This document shows positions 14,521 through 20,764 of a stretch of DNA of 64,000 bases, piece after piece. Both the position numbers and the translations under genes were made by a program. This stretch comes from Oscillospiraceae bacterium (GTDB taxonomy: Bacteria > Bacillota > Clostridia > Oscillospirales > Acutalibacteraceae). Positions within the stretch are counted from its first letter, which is position 1. Each line of letters begins with the position of its first letter. The notes under the pieces were generated by a model. It was not told where the DNA came from. It ran no database searches and saw nothing but the letters and a program-made list of their open reading frames with translations. The stretch lies in the NCBI GenBank assembly GCA_015066385.1, contig SVOJ01000002.1, forward strand, positions 124,001 to 188,000, given 5' to 3'.

Positions 14521-14563
14521 AAACTGACTTCTCATAAAAGTGAAAAGTCAGTTTCTTTTTTAT
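14521..14563 (+). terminator. Terminator of the fba operon
   Basis: A 10-bp stem (14521-14530 with 14545-14554) is followed by TTTCTTTTTTAT-type sequence on the plus strand. It overlaps the end of the converging minus-strand gene. Confidence 0.8.
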
Positions 14564-17500
14564 CTCATAATATCTTTTACAATTTCCGCAAGGTCTTCAT
14601 CCGTGAACACTACGGGATAACCAAGGGATTTGACTTCATCCTGTGCACGGTCAACAATAAAAGCAATATCACTGTTTTTAAACTGCACATCATCAAGAAG
14701 ATGCAAATGCGCAATCAGTTCGTCGCATTTTGCAACAAAGATTTCTGCGGCTGTCAAAGTCGAAGTTCCGTCATCAGCAAATCCGCAAACTACTGCGAGT
14801 TCTGCAAGCGGTTTTGCAATATGCGGCAAGCTTGCACGAAGAACCGGCACAAAAGCGGCGGCGATGGCAACACCGTGCGGCAGATGGCAAAGTTCACCGA
14901 GCCTGTGCGCAATAGCATGGATGTAGCCCGTGCTGATTCTGCGGAAAGCCTTCCCCGCAATATAGGCGGCCTCAAGCATATTCTGTCGTGCGGGAAGATT
15001 TTCGGGATCCGCACAGACAGTCGGTAAATTTTCAAAAATCATCTTACACGCTGTCGGAGCATTTTCTTTGTCTTCGGGGAAATCTTCTGCAAACAGACTG
15101 CAATATGCTTCTACGGCGTGGCTGAGCGCATCAATACCCGTTGCGGCAGTCATCTTTGCAGGCAGACCGAGTGTAAAAGAAGCATCCGATGCAATGACCC
15201 GCGGTAAGAATTTATCACTGAGATAGGGTGTTTTTTGCTGTTTTTCTTCGTCGGTCAGCACCGCAAAAACAGTCACTTCCGAACCCGTACCTGCAGTTGT
15301 GGGAACGGCATAAAACGGGACAGCGGGAGCCGGTTCTGCAAACAGACCACAGACGGTATCGGGCGATTTGCCGGGATTTCCCGCACACAAAGCACAAACC
15401 TTTGCACAGTCGAGCACCGCACCGCCGCCGACGGCAAGCACACAATCGCAGTCATTGTCAACATACATCTGCAAAGCTTTCTGCACACTGTTTACGGTCG
15501 GCTCGCCCGGGATGTCAACAAACACACAAGCGGAATCAAATTCTGCAAGAAGCGTTTTTATTTTTTCAAATTCCAATGCAAGCGGGAACGTGACAACAAG
15601 AGGGCTTCTGATTCCGTCTTCTTTCATTTTTACACAAAGATCCGCAACCGCGTTCTCCCCGATCAGCAAGATGCTGTCAGGCAACTGCACCTTGCGCAGG
15701 GTACTGACAAACAATTTCTGAATGGGGGTCATGGTCGCTTTGCCAGTGTGCATCGGCTTGATTTCATACTTTTCTTCCGGCAGACAGTTATTGCCGACCG
15801 TAAGATAGTTATATTCGGGAATGCTCCATGAAAGGCCAAGTGCGTTCATCCTTTGCAAGGTAAAATCGCAGAAAGTTTCAATGTTTGCGCTTCTGCCCGA
15901 AATGAGCATATAGAACATATAAACATGAATGTCGCGGTCATCGGTGTTTGCAAAGGCAGTTTCGATGAGCGCAAGCGGTGACACTTTTTTGTAAGGTACA
16001 CCAAGATATTTAAACAGATTTTCGGTGGACAGATAATTGGGATTCATCAGATGATAAATCTCGTTTACTCTGCCGGACATTGCAAGTCCGACAAAGGCTT
16101 TTGCGCATTCGTCAACAGCGGTCAGATCCATCGGATATTTGTCCGCCACACTGCTGAGAAGACCGAGTTTGACCATGGCATGAATGCGGTGTAAAAAACC
16201 GTTATCGTTGGTGTTGATCTGAAAAACACCATCCGTGGTTCGCCATGTCAGATTACCAATGCGGTAGATATTGCTCTGCAAGCCTTCCTTACGGGCGACA
16301 AGCACCGCTTCTTCGGCTCTGTATTTGCTGTGGATATACACATTTTCCGTGAATTTCTGCCCGATATCAAGGGTGAATTCATCAAATTTTGCGGTTTTGT
16401 CCGTTTGCGGGACAGTCGCTGCACCGTGAACACTGACAGTGGAAGTATGATGCAAAACGGCATTGGCTCGCTTTGCAAAATCAATACAATGTACCGTTCC
16501 GTCCACATTTGTTTTCTTTAAATCGGTATAATCGCCCGCATGATGTACATTGGCGGCAACATGAAAAACAGCATCAATGGTTCGGCAAAGTTCATTGTAT
16601 TGCACTTCGTTAATGCCGAGGTTCTCTTTTTCGATATTACCGATCACGATATGTACACGGTCAAGCGGTAATGAATTGAAGTAATATTTTATCTGTTCGT
16701 GAAATCTTGTTTCACTTCGCACAAGGCAGTACACATCGACATTTTTTGCAAGCAATTCTTTGAGGATATGAATGCCGAGAAATCCCGTTGCTCCCGTCAG
16801 AAGAATATTTTTGTATTCGCCTGCGGCACTTCCCTGCCCCGCTGTTTCGGCGATGACGGCATTGATACCCGTCACCGCGCGGTCCTCCTGCGCATTTTCA
16901 GTTTCAAGCACAGCTGCAAGTTCACCGAGCACGGGATGGTCATAAACAAGTTGTGTGCCGATATGCAGGCTGACGGCAAGCTCGGTGGCAGACAGGCTGT
17001 CGCCGCCCAAGGCAAAAAAGTTTTCATTCATGCCGACTTTTTCTTTATTGAGCACATCGCAGACCGCCGCACAAACACGATTTTCCGCAGGTGTGGACGG
17101 CAGAACAAATTCTTCCTTTTTCGTGGGTTTTCCGCCCGTTCGTTTAATTTTGGAAGACGCAGTGCGCTCAAACGGTGTATCACGCAGAGTAAATTTTGCA
17201 ATGCGTTGAAAAGAGGCAAGATTTTCATTGACTGTATTAAGAATATCCCGCATAACGGCTTCGGGATCGGTGATTCCCTGCTTGCGGATATACTCCGCAT
17301 TCGGGAAGATTTCCACACAAATCATGCCGGATTCCCCATAAGCAATTACTTCCTGCACAAAGGGAATATTGGCAAAGCGTTCTTCCAGAAACTCTGCAGA
17401 TACATTTTCGCCGTTGTCAAGCAGGATCAGATTTTTGCATCGGCCTGTAATAAACAGAAACCCTTCTTCGTCAATGTATCCGAGGTCGCCCGTATGAAGC

Positions 17501-18657
17501 CAGCCGTCTTCAGTAAAGGCTTCTTTTGTGGCGGCTTCATTTTTATAATATCCCATCATAACCCCTGCCCCTTTGGCAAGGATTTCACCGTTTGCGATTT
17601 TCACCTGCATACAGGGGATCGGCTTGCCGACAGACCCATGCTTCCAATAAGTGACCGTATTGTTTGCAATGACGGGTGAGCATTCCGTCATACCGTAACC
17701 ATTGAGCACAATCATTCCCGCCTGCGTATAACGGGCATTGTAAGCCGCTTCCAACGGTGCTCCGCCCGAAACGATTTTCCCGCAACCGCCCAGAAATTCT
17801 TTGACAGCATCGCTTTCTTCCATGTCGGCTTTTGATTTTGCATAACGCAGTGCGCCGCCCATGAGTTTGTTTGCAATCAGTGGTACACAGACAATACTCT
17901 GCGGTTGAAAAAGACGGATATCATTGAGCAGATTGTTCATATTGTCGTTGACACATACGGTTGCACCGCGGAAGATAATTTTTGTGATATTGGTCGTAAA
18001 ACAGTAGGCATGATTGATCGGCAAACAGCAAAAAACGCGCGGTGCCGTGTCGTACTCCCACACACTCATGGCACTGTTGACAAGGTTATGCTGATTGAGC
18101 ATAACTCCTTTCGGGAATCCCGTCGTGCCGGAAGTAAAAAGAAGGGTACAGAAACGCATAGGGTCAGGTTCCCCGTAAAAAACACCCGCATTGTCTGCAA
18201 GTACAGAAGAAAAGGATTCCACATAATCCGCTGAAACTGCATCGTCCATGGAAATGAACAGTTTTACGCGAGGCAGTTTTTCATGCAGTAAACGACAAAG
18301 ACTTTCGTGCTTTTTGTCGAAAACCAACACATCCGTATCACCGAACTCACACAGTTGACGGTTCATATCGTCCGTTTCATTTGCAGCAAGCGGAATAATG
18401 ACACTATCTGCAGCGACAGTGCCGAAATAAGTAACGATCCATTCAAAACAAGTCGGGCCGACCACTGCAACGTGCGCGCCTTTCATGTTTCGATTTTCAA
18501 GCAATCGGCTGAACGCATCGCTCGCCGCCTGCAGTTGCAGATAGGTCTTGTTTGCAACCGATCCGTTATCCTTAAAAAGAAGAAAATCATTTTCAGGATA
18601 CCGATCGGCCGCAAAGTCGATCATATTTTTCAAGGTTTTAATATCTTTCAGTTCCAT
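14560..18657 (-). CDS. Four-domain fusion: adenylation, carrier, thioester reductase, iron alcohol dehydrogenase
   Basis: A 1365-residue cytoplasmic protein. Domain order (numbered from ATG 18657): AMP-binding/adenylation about 5-510 (FTSGTTGFPKG near 175, GYGMTECSP, HTGDLGYIDEEG); acyl-carrier domain 525-590 with phosphopantetheine Ser in GGDSLS near 554; NAD-binding thioester reductase 615-965 (TGATGFLG near 621, Tyr774-x3-Lys778); iron-dependent alcohol dehydrogenase 980-1365 (GGGAVLDCAK, Asp1176/His1180, His1247, His1261, the four iron ligands of the FucO family). Known carboxylic acid reductases stop at the aldehyde; the added dehydrogenase should reduce it to an alcohol. All key residues look intact. 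The ATG lies just after the upstream GatD-like stop with a weak ribosome site; an alternative TTG at 18666 overlaps that gene. Substrate unknown; the adenylation domain looks acyl- rather than amino-acid-type, and there is no condensation domain. Confidence 0.88.
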   Translation of the reverse strand: MELKDIKTLKNMIDFAADRYPENDFLLFKDNGSVANKTYLQLQAASDAFSRLLENRNMKGAHVAVVGPTCFEWIVTYFGTVAADSVIIPLAANETDDMNRQLCEFGDTDVLVFDKKHESLCRLLHEKLPRVKLFISMDDAVSADYVESFSSVLADNAGVFYGEPDPMRFCTLLFTSGTTGFPKGVMLNQHNLVNSAMSVWEYDTAPRVFCCLPINHAYCFTTNITKIIFRGATVCVNDNMNNLLNDIRLFQPQSIVCVPLIANKLMGGALRYAKSKADMEESDAVKEFLGGCGKIVSGGAPLEAAYNARYTQAGMIVLNGYGMTECSPVIANNTVTYWKHGSVGKPIPCMQVKIANGEILAKGAGVMMGYYKNEAATKEAFTEDGWLHTGDLGYIDEEGFLFITGRCKNLILLDNGENVSAEFLEERFANIPFVQEVIAYGESGMICVEIFPNAEYIRKQGITDPEAVMRDILNTVNENLASFQRIAKFTLRDTPFERTASSKIKRTGGKPTKKEEFVLPSTPAENRVCAAVCDVLNKEKVGMNENFFALGGDSLSATELAVSLHIGTQLVYDHPVLGELAAVLETENAQEDRAVTGINAVIAETAGQGSAAGEYKNILLTGATGFLGIHILKELLAKNVDVYCLVRSETRFHEQIKYYFNSLPLDRVHIVIGNIEKENLGINEVQYNELCRTIDAVFHVAANVHHAGDYTDLKKTNVDGTVHCIDFAKRANAVLHHTSTVSVHGAATVPQTDKTAKFDEFTLDIGQKFTENVYIHSKYRAEEAVLVARKEGLQSNIYRIGNLTWRTTDGVFQINTNDNGFLHRIHAMVKLGLLSSVADKYPMDLTAVDECAKAFVGLAMSGRVNEIYHLMNPNYLSTENLFKYLGVPYKKVSPLALIETAFANTDDRDIHVYMFYMLISGRSANIETFCDFTLQRMNALGLSWSIPEYNYLTVGNNCLPEEKYEIKPMHTGKATMTPIQKLFVSTLRKVQLPDSILLIGENAVADLCVKMKEDGIRSPLVVTFPLALEFEKIKTLLAEFDSACVFVDIPGEPTVNSVQKALQMYVDNDCDCVLAVGGGAVLDCAKVCALCAGNPGKSPDTVCGLFAEPAPAVPFYAVPTTAGTGSEVTVFAVLTDEEKQQKTPYLSDKFLPRVIASDASFTLGLPAKMTAATGIDALSHAVEAYCSLFAEDFPEDKENAPTACKMIFENLPTVCADPENLPARQNMLEAAYIAGKAFRRISTGYIHAIAHRLGELCHLPHGVAIAAAFVPVLRASLPHIAKPLAELAVVCGFADDGTSTLTAAEIFVAKCDELIAHLHLLDDVQFKNSDIAFIVDRAQDEVKSLGYPVVFTDEDLAEIVKDIMR

Positions 18658-18662
18658 TTTTA

Positions 18663-19385
18663 TCAACCGATTCCCGTACGTTTGGGATCCTTGAACTCTG
18701 CAAGGCGAATTTCGTAGGCTTTCAGTGCGACATCCTCAAAGGGGATTTTCACATCAGCACCTGCACTTTCAAGGAAGAATCTTGTGAATTTCGGATTCAT
18801 AACAAGTAAAGGTCCGATAATATAAGTGGCATACAGATTGTTCTTGTGAATGCCTTCAAGTTTTGCACCGGGGCAGATCCCCGTACCGCGTTCGACGGTG
18901 ATAAAACCGTATTCTTCAGGCAGGCCATAGGTGTGCCCAAACTGCGTTTTGAAGCCGATGATATCACTGCCGCAGCCGTTGCCGAGAATACTGCAAAAGA
19001 AACGCTTGTTCATCACAAGATCGACATGGCACGGAAACAGGCCGAGTGCTTTATATGTTTTTTCGGTTTTGTTATCCACTTCGAGCACATGGATGTATTC
19101 ACCCAGCACATCCACACTGTTGCCCGTAAACAGAATATGCACACCGTCTTCAATAAGCTGTGCAAAACGGTCTTTATAGGGCATCAGAGCATCAATTATG
19201 CGAAGCTGATTGCGTTCCGTGGTTGCCCCCATGTAAATAATATCGGGGGTATTGTCTGCAAAATAAGGCTTGTCCTGCAGGTCGGTGCAGATAAATTCAG
19301 CATCGGGCAGGCAACGGCGCAGATATTCGGCATTAAATTCATCGCCGTAAAGATATGCCTTTTCAAAAAGGATTTCAACCGTCAT
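18663..19385 (-). CDS. GatD-like class I glutamine amidotransferase fold, catalytic residues missing
   Basis: A 240-residue protein that aligns by eye along its length with GatD, the subunit that feeds ammonia from glutamine to MurT. GatD landmarks are recognisable but altered: the catalytic Cys94 motif (ICGGYQFLG in S. aureus) reads FTGNSVDVLG here, with Thr87 in place of Cys, and the catalytic His189 motif (TYLHGP) reads TYIIGP with Ile190. It should therefore be unable to hydrolyse glutamine. The frame is intact and the fold-defining IEDG and GPLL segments persist, so it looks like a maintained pseudoenzyme. Its start overlaps the MurT-like stop (ATGA) and the large fusion starts right after it, so all three are coupled. 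Confidence 0.75.
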   Translation of the reverse strand: MTVEILFEKAYLYGDEFNAEYLRRCLPDAEFICTDLQDKPYFADNTPDIIYMGATTERNQLRIIDALMPYKDRFAQLIEDGVHILFTGNSVDVLGEYIHVLEVDNKTEKTYKALGLFPCHVDLVMNKRFFCSILGNGCGSDIIGFKTQFGHTYGLPEEYGFITVERGTGICPGAKLEGIHKNNLYATYIIGPLLVMNPKFTRFFLESAGADVKIPFEDVALKAYEIRLAEFKDPKRTGIG

Positions 19386-20764
19386 TTACGTTCCCTCCCG
19401 AATTCTTCAATTTTTTCTTCCAGTTCTTTGCGCAGTTTCATCTGTTCGTCATATACATACAGTTCAAACAGCATAATAAAGGTCGGTGCTTTGCTGAAAT
19501 CTGCAATTTTGGTAATATCAAACGGTTCGTGGAAAGTGGTCATGCGATCTTCGGGCACACCTGCCAGCAGCAGACGGTATTTCATATCTTCCGCACGGAA
19601 ACCGGAAATATAGATATGCTTGACGGAATCGTCAGCAAGACGTTCGAGGTCTGCTTCGTAATACCAGGTCAGATTTTCGCAACCGATTTTAATTTCCACA
19701 TTGTCGTCCAGGAACATAAAGACGGACTTGTCGCCTTCGATCTGCTTGACATAATTGCTGACAACAGAAAGCGCAACGGGGTTGAGTCCTTTGACTACGT
19801 GGCTGATGAATTTGACATCGCCGATCTGTTTTTCATAGTAACGGGAATCAGTTACTTTGATATTCTTGAGAGATTTTGCAATCTGTTCGGGAGTGAGGCC
19901 GAGTTCCAGAAGAAGTGAAATGGCGGCAATTTCGTTATAAACATTGAAAGCACTTGCCTGAATCAAAGGATAAGTAAAGGCTTTGCCGTTGTGTTCGGCA
20001 TACAGTTCTTTTTTCTGTGCATCAATGCCCGTTACGATATGATCGGATTCCGGATTCTGCAGACCGCAGGACGGACAACGGAAGTGACCGATGTGGTGAT
20101 AACGGCGGAATGTGAATTCCGGCACACCGCCGCAAACGGGACAATAACCTGCATCGTTGATAATGTTGGGTTCCCCTGCCGACTCACCTTCCAACGGAAG
20201 AACACTGAAATGAATACGGCGGTTGCTGCCGTCAATACGCACACGAGAACCGATGACATCATCGGCGTTGAGAATCAGTACCGTATCATCGGGAACGGCA
20301 TTGGTGATGATATCCGAAATAAAATCAGGATGTGCATTGCGTTTGCAGGAATCGCGGAACAAGTCAACCACGATCAGATAATCGGGATGGATATTTCTGA
20401 AAATACGGGTGGAACTGCGTTCATCAACTTCAAGAACACAGTCGTCATATTTGCAACGATTAAAAATCGTGACACCGCGGGTCATTGTGACGGCAATACC
20501 GTTTTCGGTGTTGGAGCCGAATTTATTATCCAACACCGTATAACCGTTGGTACGAAGTGCATCTTCCAGCAGATTGCAAACGGTTGATTTCCCGTTTGTG
20601 CCCGTTACACAAAGAATGTGTTTGGGCTTTTTGAGATAGCGTATATAATCGGGGCAGATGTGCAGTGCGATTCTGCCGGGGGTGTGCGAAGCACGTCTGC
20701 CGAGTAAACGCAAGCCCGTATAAGTTGCCTTGCACACAATAAATGCGATAATGAACCTTAACAT
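19382..20764 (-). CDS. MurT-like Mur ligase (with DUF1727 C-terminal domain)
   Basis: A 460-residue ATP-dependent Mur ligase family protein. Order: N-terminal hydrophobic helix 1-20; central ATPase with P-loop TGTNGKST (54-61) and VLEVDERSS; a four-Cys zinc ribbon inserted at 208-233 (CPVCG, CPSCG), diagnostic of MurT; C-terminal MurT domain from about 320. Canonical MurT with GatD amidates the D-Glu of lipid II. Here the C-terminal W-I-W-D motif, whose Asp helps the GatD active site, reads WYYE (367-370), matching the loss of catalysis in the partner gene. ATP site and zinc ribbon look intact, so ligase activity with another nucleophile is plausible. The ATG follows AGGAGAATAAAAA; 25 bp separate it from the flavoprotein gene, with no terminator. 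Confidence 0.82.
   Translation of the reverse strand: MLRFIIAFIVCKATYTGLRLLGRRASHTPGRIALHICPDYIRYLKKPKHILCVTGTNGKSTVCNLLEDALRTNGYTVLDNKFGSNTENGIAVTMTRGVTIFNRCKYDDCVLEVDERSSTRIFRNIHPDYLIVVDLFRDSCKRNAHPDFISDIITNAVPDDTVLILNADDVIGSRVRIDGSNRRIHFSVLPLEGESAGEPNIINDAGYCPVCGGVPEFTFRRYHHIGHFRCPSCGLQNPESDHIVTGIDAQKKELYAEHNGKAFTYPLIQASAFNVYNEIAAISLLLELGLTPEQIAKSLKNIKVTDSRYYEKQIGDVKFISHVVKGLNPVALSVVSNYVKQIEGDKSVFMFLDDNVEIKIGCENLTWYYEADLERLADDSVKHIYISGFRAEDMKYRLLLAGVPEDRMTTFHEPFDITKIADFSKAPTFIMLFELYVYDEQMKLRKELEEKIEEFGRERK

Follow-up and report, generated by a model that had tools for sequence, protein, structure and literature searches.

Carboxylic acid reductases (CARs) spend ATP through their adenylation (A) and carrier (T) domains in the acid-to-aldehyde direction, and AdhE begins at acyl-CoA with an aldehyde dehydrogenase domain. 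Conversion of an acid to an alcohol via the aldehyde on one polypeptide is described for ATRR (A-T-R1-R2), which takes glycine betaine to choline (PMC11050029); reductase (R) domains of CARs are reported to reduce some aldehydes to alcohols (PMC10168641), and FAR enzymes are described as carrying out a four-electron reduction of acyl thioesters (PMC7744569). The window considered here, 64,000 nucleotides from an Oscillospiraceae bacterium (a gut member of the Clostridia; contig SVOJ01000002.1, positions 124,001 to 188,000), contains a gene for a fusion protein in which A, T and R domains are followed by an iron-containing alcohol dehydrogenase (ADH), and which is likely to be a self-contained carboxylate-to-alcohol reductase. 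A preliminary description of the window had held that known CARs have the first three domains and stop at the aldehyde. Judged by the accounts cited, that premise was too strong, and the overall reaction is known in kind because ATRR, FAR and the over-reducing CARs are precedents.

Domain organization and catalytic residues

The gene lies at 14560-18657 on the minus strand and encodes 1365 residues from an ATG; an alternative TTG at 18666, overlapping the stop of the upstream gene, lengthens the frame to 1368 residues (14560-18666, minus), and residue and Pfam domain numbers of the protein are counted here from that TTG. All of the families expected from the preliminary description were recovered by a Pfam search in the A-T-R-ADH order that it had proposed, each above its curated cut-off: AMP-binding (residues 19-374, 194 bits versus 29.9), PP-binding (530-568, 29.4 versus 20.8), NAD_binding_4 (623-857, 158 versus 20.1), Fe-ADH (1000-1160, 128 versus 31.3) and ADH_Fe_C (1173-1366, 123 versus 27). 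On the minus strand, the adenylation domain with its C-terminal subdomain occupies 17131-18645 (AMP-binding core 17545-18612; A10 lysine present), the phosphopantetheine carrier domain 16963-17079, the thioester reductase domain 15802-16800 (NAD_binding_4 16096-16800), with its end at 15802 set where the match to an ADH-less relative stops, and the dehydrogenase domain 14569-15669.

The key residues claimed for all four domains could each be located. The A domain has the motifs TSGTTGFPKG, HTGD and GRCK and the Lys of SSKIKR, carrier Ser557 (codon 16996-16998) sits in LGGDSLS, and the reductase domain has GATGFLG and Tyr777-x3-Lys781 (codons 16336-16338 and 16324-16326). The dehydrogenase domain has GGGAVLD together with Asp1179, His1183, His1250 and His1264, which we take to be the metal ligands, and solved iron ADHs align with its Asp/His stretches.

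With A-T-R order, carrier Ser and Tyr-x3-Lys the protein resembles a CAR, and its score with the NCBIfam CAR model NF041592 (150 bits) is below the cut-off of 1300; the Fe-ADH fold, the Asp and three His, and GGGxxxD are those of an iron-containing ADH. No AdhE-type aldehyde dehydrogenase domain is among the 12 Pfam matches (NF010378, 172 bits versus 951), and the C-terminal domain is Fe-ADH/ADH_Fe_C, not the short-chain dehydrogenase that forms R2 of ATRR. The A4 motif, LPINHAYCFTT, lacks the Asp that in amino-acid nonribosomal peptide synthetases presumably holds the amino group, and has His in 19 of the 19 intact ("live") proteins of the alignment described below that cover it. By sequence, the nearest solved structures for the first part of the protein are acyl-CoA ligases and CARs; the middle part is closest to a thiolation-reductase didomain and the AusA and MxaA reductases, and the last part to methanol and propanediol dehydrogenases. 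Structural matches of the A domain were best with FadD13 among others, with aryl and dicarboxylate ligases within about 2 Z units.

Distribution and conservation

The four-domain order, for which a survey had been suggested earlier, recurs in the genus and the family and, at the thresholds used, did not turn up in the class and phylum draws beyond the window's own genome. Of 26 genus genomes searched, 15 have the fusion (12 whole and three cut at contig ends, in G212, G220 and G204), two have a degenerate relative, and nine have no such match, five of these being less than 90% complete. The G204 copy (L161 2-3574) has one in-frame stop in addition to the contig-end cut, and lies at the locus where other genomes have dead relatives. 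Nine of 397 genomes drawn from the family matched, two within the genus (the window's own and G210) and seven outside it (G003, G743, G056, G174, G162, G795 and G060, the last spread over two contigs), and the fusion is kept across five genera. Since it is present in 15 of the 26 genus genomes and in seven family genomes beyond them, it is not an accident of assembly.

At the thresholds used, the fusion was found in none of 390 other genomes of the class draw (391 with its own), where 12 genomes had an A-only match, and in none of 397 others of the phylum draw (398 with its own). The order draw (295 genomes with its own) gave one genome, G1211, having A-T-R without ADH and four having ADH-only matches. 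Remote fusions may have escaped the family (397 and 200 genomes), class, order and phylum surveys, in which scoring was confined to each genome's best 1 to 3 candidates, with E-value limits between 1e-60 and 1e-100. A named scan with six short peptides as query, in which the best 80 of 409 confirmed places were kept, gave seven four-domain places (six whole, L013 cut), all in metagenome-assembled Clostridia; six of them (L010-L015) were apparently already counted among the genus genomes, and the two counts overlap. Spread by plasmids was rejected, as a search of 72,556 plasmid records gave no single place that covered 80% of the T-R-ADH part.

Twenty-two proteins were aligned: 20 live (the window protein, L009-L015, L143-L147 and L155-L161) and two degenerate (L162 and L163), with L148 (the second G060 piece), an L161 N-terminal fragment (outside the cluster) and the proteins of G220, G743 and G795 left outside. 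Because the 20 live rows share the domain order over their covered length, the order is beyond chance, and at each catalytic position checked, all live rows that cover it retain the residue. Between the window protein and L155 or L014, nonsynonymous divergence (dN) is 0.15-0.39 and synonymous divergence (dS) 1.5-2.5 in six of eight domain comparisons; dS is saturated in the other two (the L155 A domain and the L014 carrier), with at least one usable dS for each domain. Against L156, which is more distant, dN lies at 0.35-0.65, with saturated dS in three of the four comparisons. The fusion is conserved and under selection.

Predicted reaction and alternatives

The four-domain anatomy and the reading of the protein as an acid-to-alcohol enzyme are well supported, and we consider it likely that it acts as a self-contained reductase, with the activity, putative substrate, direction and cofactors all predicted from sequence. 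The most likely candidate reaction starts from a carboxylate that is not an amino acid, and may be a fatty acid, and ends at the primary alcohol. In this scheme the cell's phosphopantetheinyl transferase would modify Ser557, and the A domain, apparently most like fatty-acyl and aryl ligases, would activate a carboxylic acid other than an alpha-amino acid with ATP, as its acyl-AMP, and load it on the carrier. The reductase domain (Tyr777/Lys781) would then release the acyl group as aldehyde with NADPH, and the iron dehydrogenase domain would turn the aldehyde into the primary alcohol; a putative direct hand-over of the aldehyde between domains is plausible. A holo-protein is possible because a phosphopantetheinyl transferase is present, the window's own genome having a 216-aa protein of that family, inferred from its length to be Sfp-type, and 24 of 26 genus genomes having PF01648. 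In the own genome (L196 7899-14656) the transferase-family gene is grouped with AMP-binding ligases and two small proteins that look carrier-like by eye, possibly a further acyl-carrier pathway.

It is conceivable, and in our view improbable, that the four-electron reduction is the work of the reductase domain alone, or that this domain goes no further than the aldehyde, with the ADH serving another substrate or mopping up free aldehyde. The purified NcCAR reductase domain is reported to reduce octanal and benzaldehyde (PMC10168641). The ADH is also the fastest-diverging domain (in comparisons of the window protein with L155 and L014, 59% identity versus 75-79% for the A and R domains); however, its residues are retained in all live rows covering them, its dN in the same comparisons is 0.37-0.39 against a dS of 1.6-2.5, and the fusion as a whole is retained in five genera. 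Iron ADHs are reversible, and the dehydrogenase might instead run oxidatively, from alcohol to aldehyde, in which case the enzyme would be no acid-to-alcohol route; we regard this as very unlikely, as the A and carrier domains spend ATP toward the aldehyde, as established for CARs, and the T-R part matches reductive-release domains.

A different question is what the alcohol is for. The preliminary description had suggested a fatty alcohol for ether lipids; the resemblance of the A domain to fatty-acid ligases is the sole basis for this that stands, and the ether-lipid link found no support among the neighbours of the fusion. Compatible with the acid-to-alcohol chemistry, and a tentative proposal at best, is that the alcohol serves to make a specialised metabolite or a signal, together with partners whose genes lie elsewhere, and not bulk lipid. 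The closest stand-alone A domains (37-41% identity) adjoin a condensation-type protein in six of six loci read out (L149-L154) and a free carrier in at least four, the fusion in L144 has GH3, condensation and AMP-binding genes beside it and that in L147 an AMP-binding gene directly before it, and a histidine kinase and a LuxR-type regulator stand ahead of the ADH-less relative. Nevertheless, the condensation-type gene of that cluster occurs only in L144 among the four-domain loci read out, and most neighbours there were judged by clustering, not by Pfam.

Origin of the fusion

The A-T-R protein of G1211, an order relative (L203 4529-7501), matches residues 29-952 of the 1365-residue protein at 40% identity, and its reading frame closes shortly afterwards. 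G1211 is taken to be without the iron ADH because a search of its genome with the whole fusion protein gave no second match at E 1e-40; the G1211-type protein was found in one of 20 genomes of G1211's family. The closest lone A domains occur at 37-41% identity in seven of 200 family genomes and at 38-41% in 12 of 391 class genomes. Each of six loci with lone A domains (L149-L154) has a condensation-cluster protein beside it, and four have a carrier-like open reading frame of 75-86 aa, an antisense frame being called at that place in L150 and L152; carrier and regulator names at these loci were given by eye, and Pfam was run on L149 only. An A-T-R enzyme probably existed first and gained the dehydrogenase later, and the simplest history leads from a carrier-loading ligase to A-T-R and then to A-T-R-ADH, with loss of the ADH in G1211 as the alternative.

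Two arrangements were seen around these relatives. In related Clostridia an AMP-binding ligase recurs with the condensation-type protein (L149-L154), with a free carrier, a hydrolase and a TetR-like regulator in most (by eye). In G1211 (L203 1-7501) the A-T-R gene lies behind genes for a 7TM (seven-transmembrane) histidine kinase, a HATPase-like protein and a LuxR-type response regulator, an arrangement that would suit an A-T-R product under sensing or regulation.

Degenerate relatives at the same locus

Unexpectedly, two genus members carry open relatives, L162 6167-9766 (1199 aa) and L163 7961-11440 (1159 aa), in which nearly all catalytic residues are gone. Both lie at the same locus as live copies, divergent from an aminotransferase 88-93% identical to the live copies' neighbour, and they share 26-28% identity with the live neighbours L159 and L160 and 28% with each other. 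The A-domain stretch from A5 to A10 is missing and the reductase Tyr and Lys are lost in both, the carrier Ser column has Ala in L162 and Pro in L163 (with Ser one place before), and of the four metal-ligand positions L162 keeps none and L163 one His; both retain the reductase Ser near residue 742. Neither frame contains a stop, whereas the fewest in 200 composition shuffles were 22 and 28, and neutral decay ought to have broken the frames.

Measured against live copies, they have a dN of 0.91-0.97, similar to the neighbouring gene's dS (0.67-1.15), and their own dS (1.55-2.55) is higher; because this dS exceeds their dN, dN/dS is about 0.4-0.6, provided the saturated values can be trusted. 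In the tree both are on very long branches and of unsure placement. These data fit pseudoenzymes that were kept and evolved fast in place, and also fit replacement by an older divergent lineage, which suits the higher dS at least as well. It could be proposed that in the live enzyme the acyl group, while tethered, and afterwards the aldehyde travel from carrier to reductase to iron dehydrogenase unreleased, and that the same-locus relatives in the two sister species have turned into full-length, non-catalytic proteins that selection keeps open, which would give the protein a second, non-enzymatic role; this combined proposal is doubtful.

Neighbouring genes

Across clades, the loci read out have no conserved gene set next to the fusion. 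AMP-binding genes stand beside it in L144 and L147 (Pfam), with genes of the same cluster in L014 and L155, and unannotated neighbour clusters recur (c9/c10 in L010, L012 and L157; c28 in L013 and L144; c29 in L015 and L155). In L144 the fusion is followed by GH3, condensation-type and AMP-binding genes, and in L159, L160 and L161 it is divergent from an aminotransferase gene (class III, by Pfam on the copy in L163), with an aldolase-like gene behind (by eye).

In the window the fusion follows GatD-like (18663-19385) and MurT-like (19382-20764) genes, the genes overlapping or touching; the GatD-like gene overlaps that of the fusion, and the MurT-like gene is single-copy. Their proteins score well below the curated lipid II amidation models, and neither gene was found in 22 other loci of the fusion or its pieces (tblastn 1e-15; several loci are short, 4.6-8 kb, with limited flanks). 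On the basis of this result, an operon or peptidoglycan link was rejected.

Comparison with known systems

The one-polypeptide acid-to-alcohol task is known elsewhere, and the iron-ADH terminus is the new element; judged by titles and abstract openings, none of the papers listed in searches on the fusion, CAR-type proteins, ATRR, four-electron reduction and ElbD, which covered few subscription journals, deals with an A-T-R-iron-ADH protein. If the predicted chemistry is true, the fusion would be a naturally occurring, self-sufficient catalyst that turns free acid into alcohol, of value for biocatalysis since CARs leave a reactive aldehyde, and would imply that uncultured Clostridia of gut and rumen make an alcohol so far unrecognised. 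With the ADH-less and dead relatives, it becomes directly testable how the final step, and catalysis as a whole, were gained and lost.

In summary, the window protein shares with CARs the order of A, carrier and thioester reductase domains, and solved CARs match it by sequence, but it adds a C-terminal iron ADH of about 370 residues and falls far under the NF041592 cut-off. It differs from AdhE, whose aldehyde dehydrogenase family is not among its Pfam matches. The G1211 protein, alike over A, T and R, has 990 aa and stops where the ADH of the window protein begins. FAR enzymes likewise go from thioester to alcohol within one protein, but need a preformed acyl-CoA or acyl-ACP (acyl carrier protein) and, in the account available, are described without A, carrier or iron ADH domains (PMC7744569). 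Myxobacterial ElbD, considered in connection with ether lipids, differs in domain order as described (PMC9131029). ATRR of fungi and nematodes, too, is a single polypeptide with four domains that leads from acid to alcohol (PMC11050029); its second reductase is a YdfG-like short-chain dehydrogenase, whereas that of the window protein is an iron ADH.
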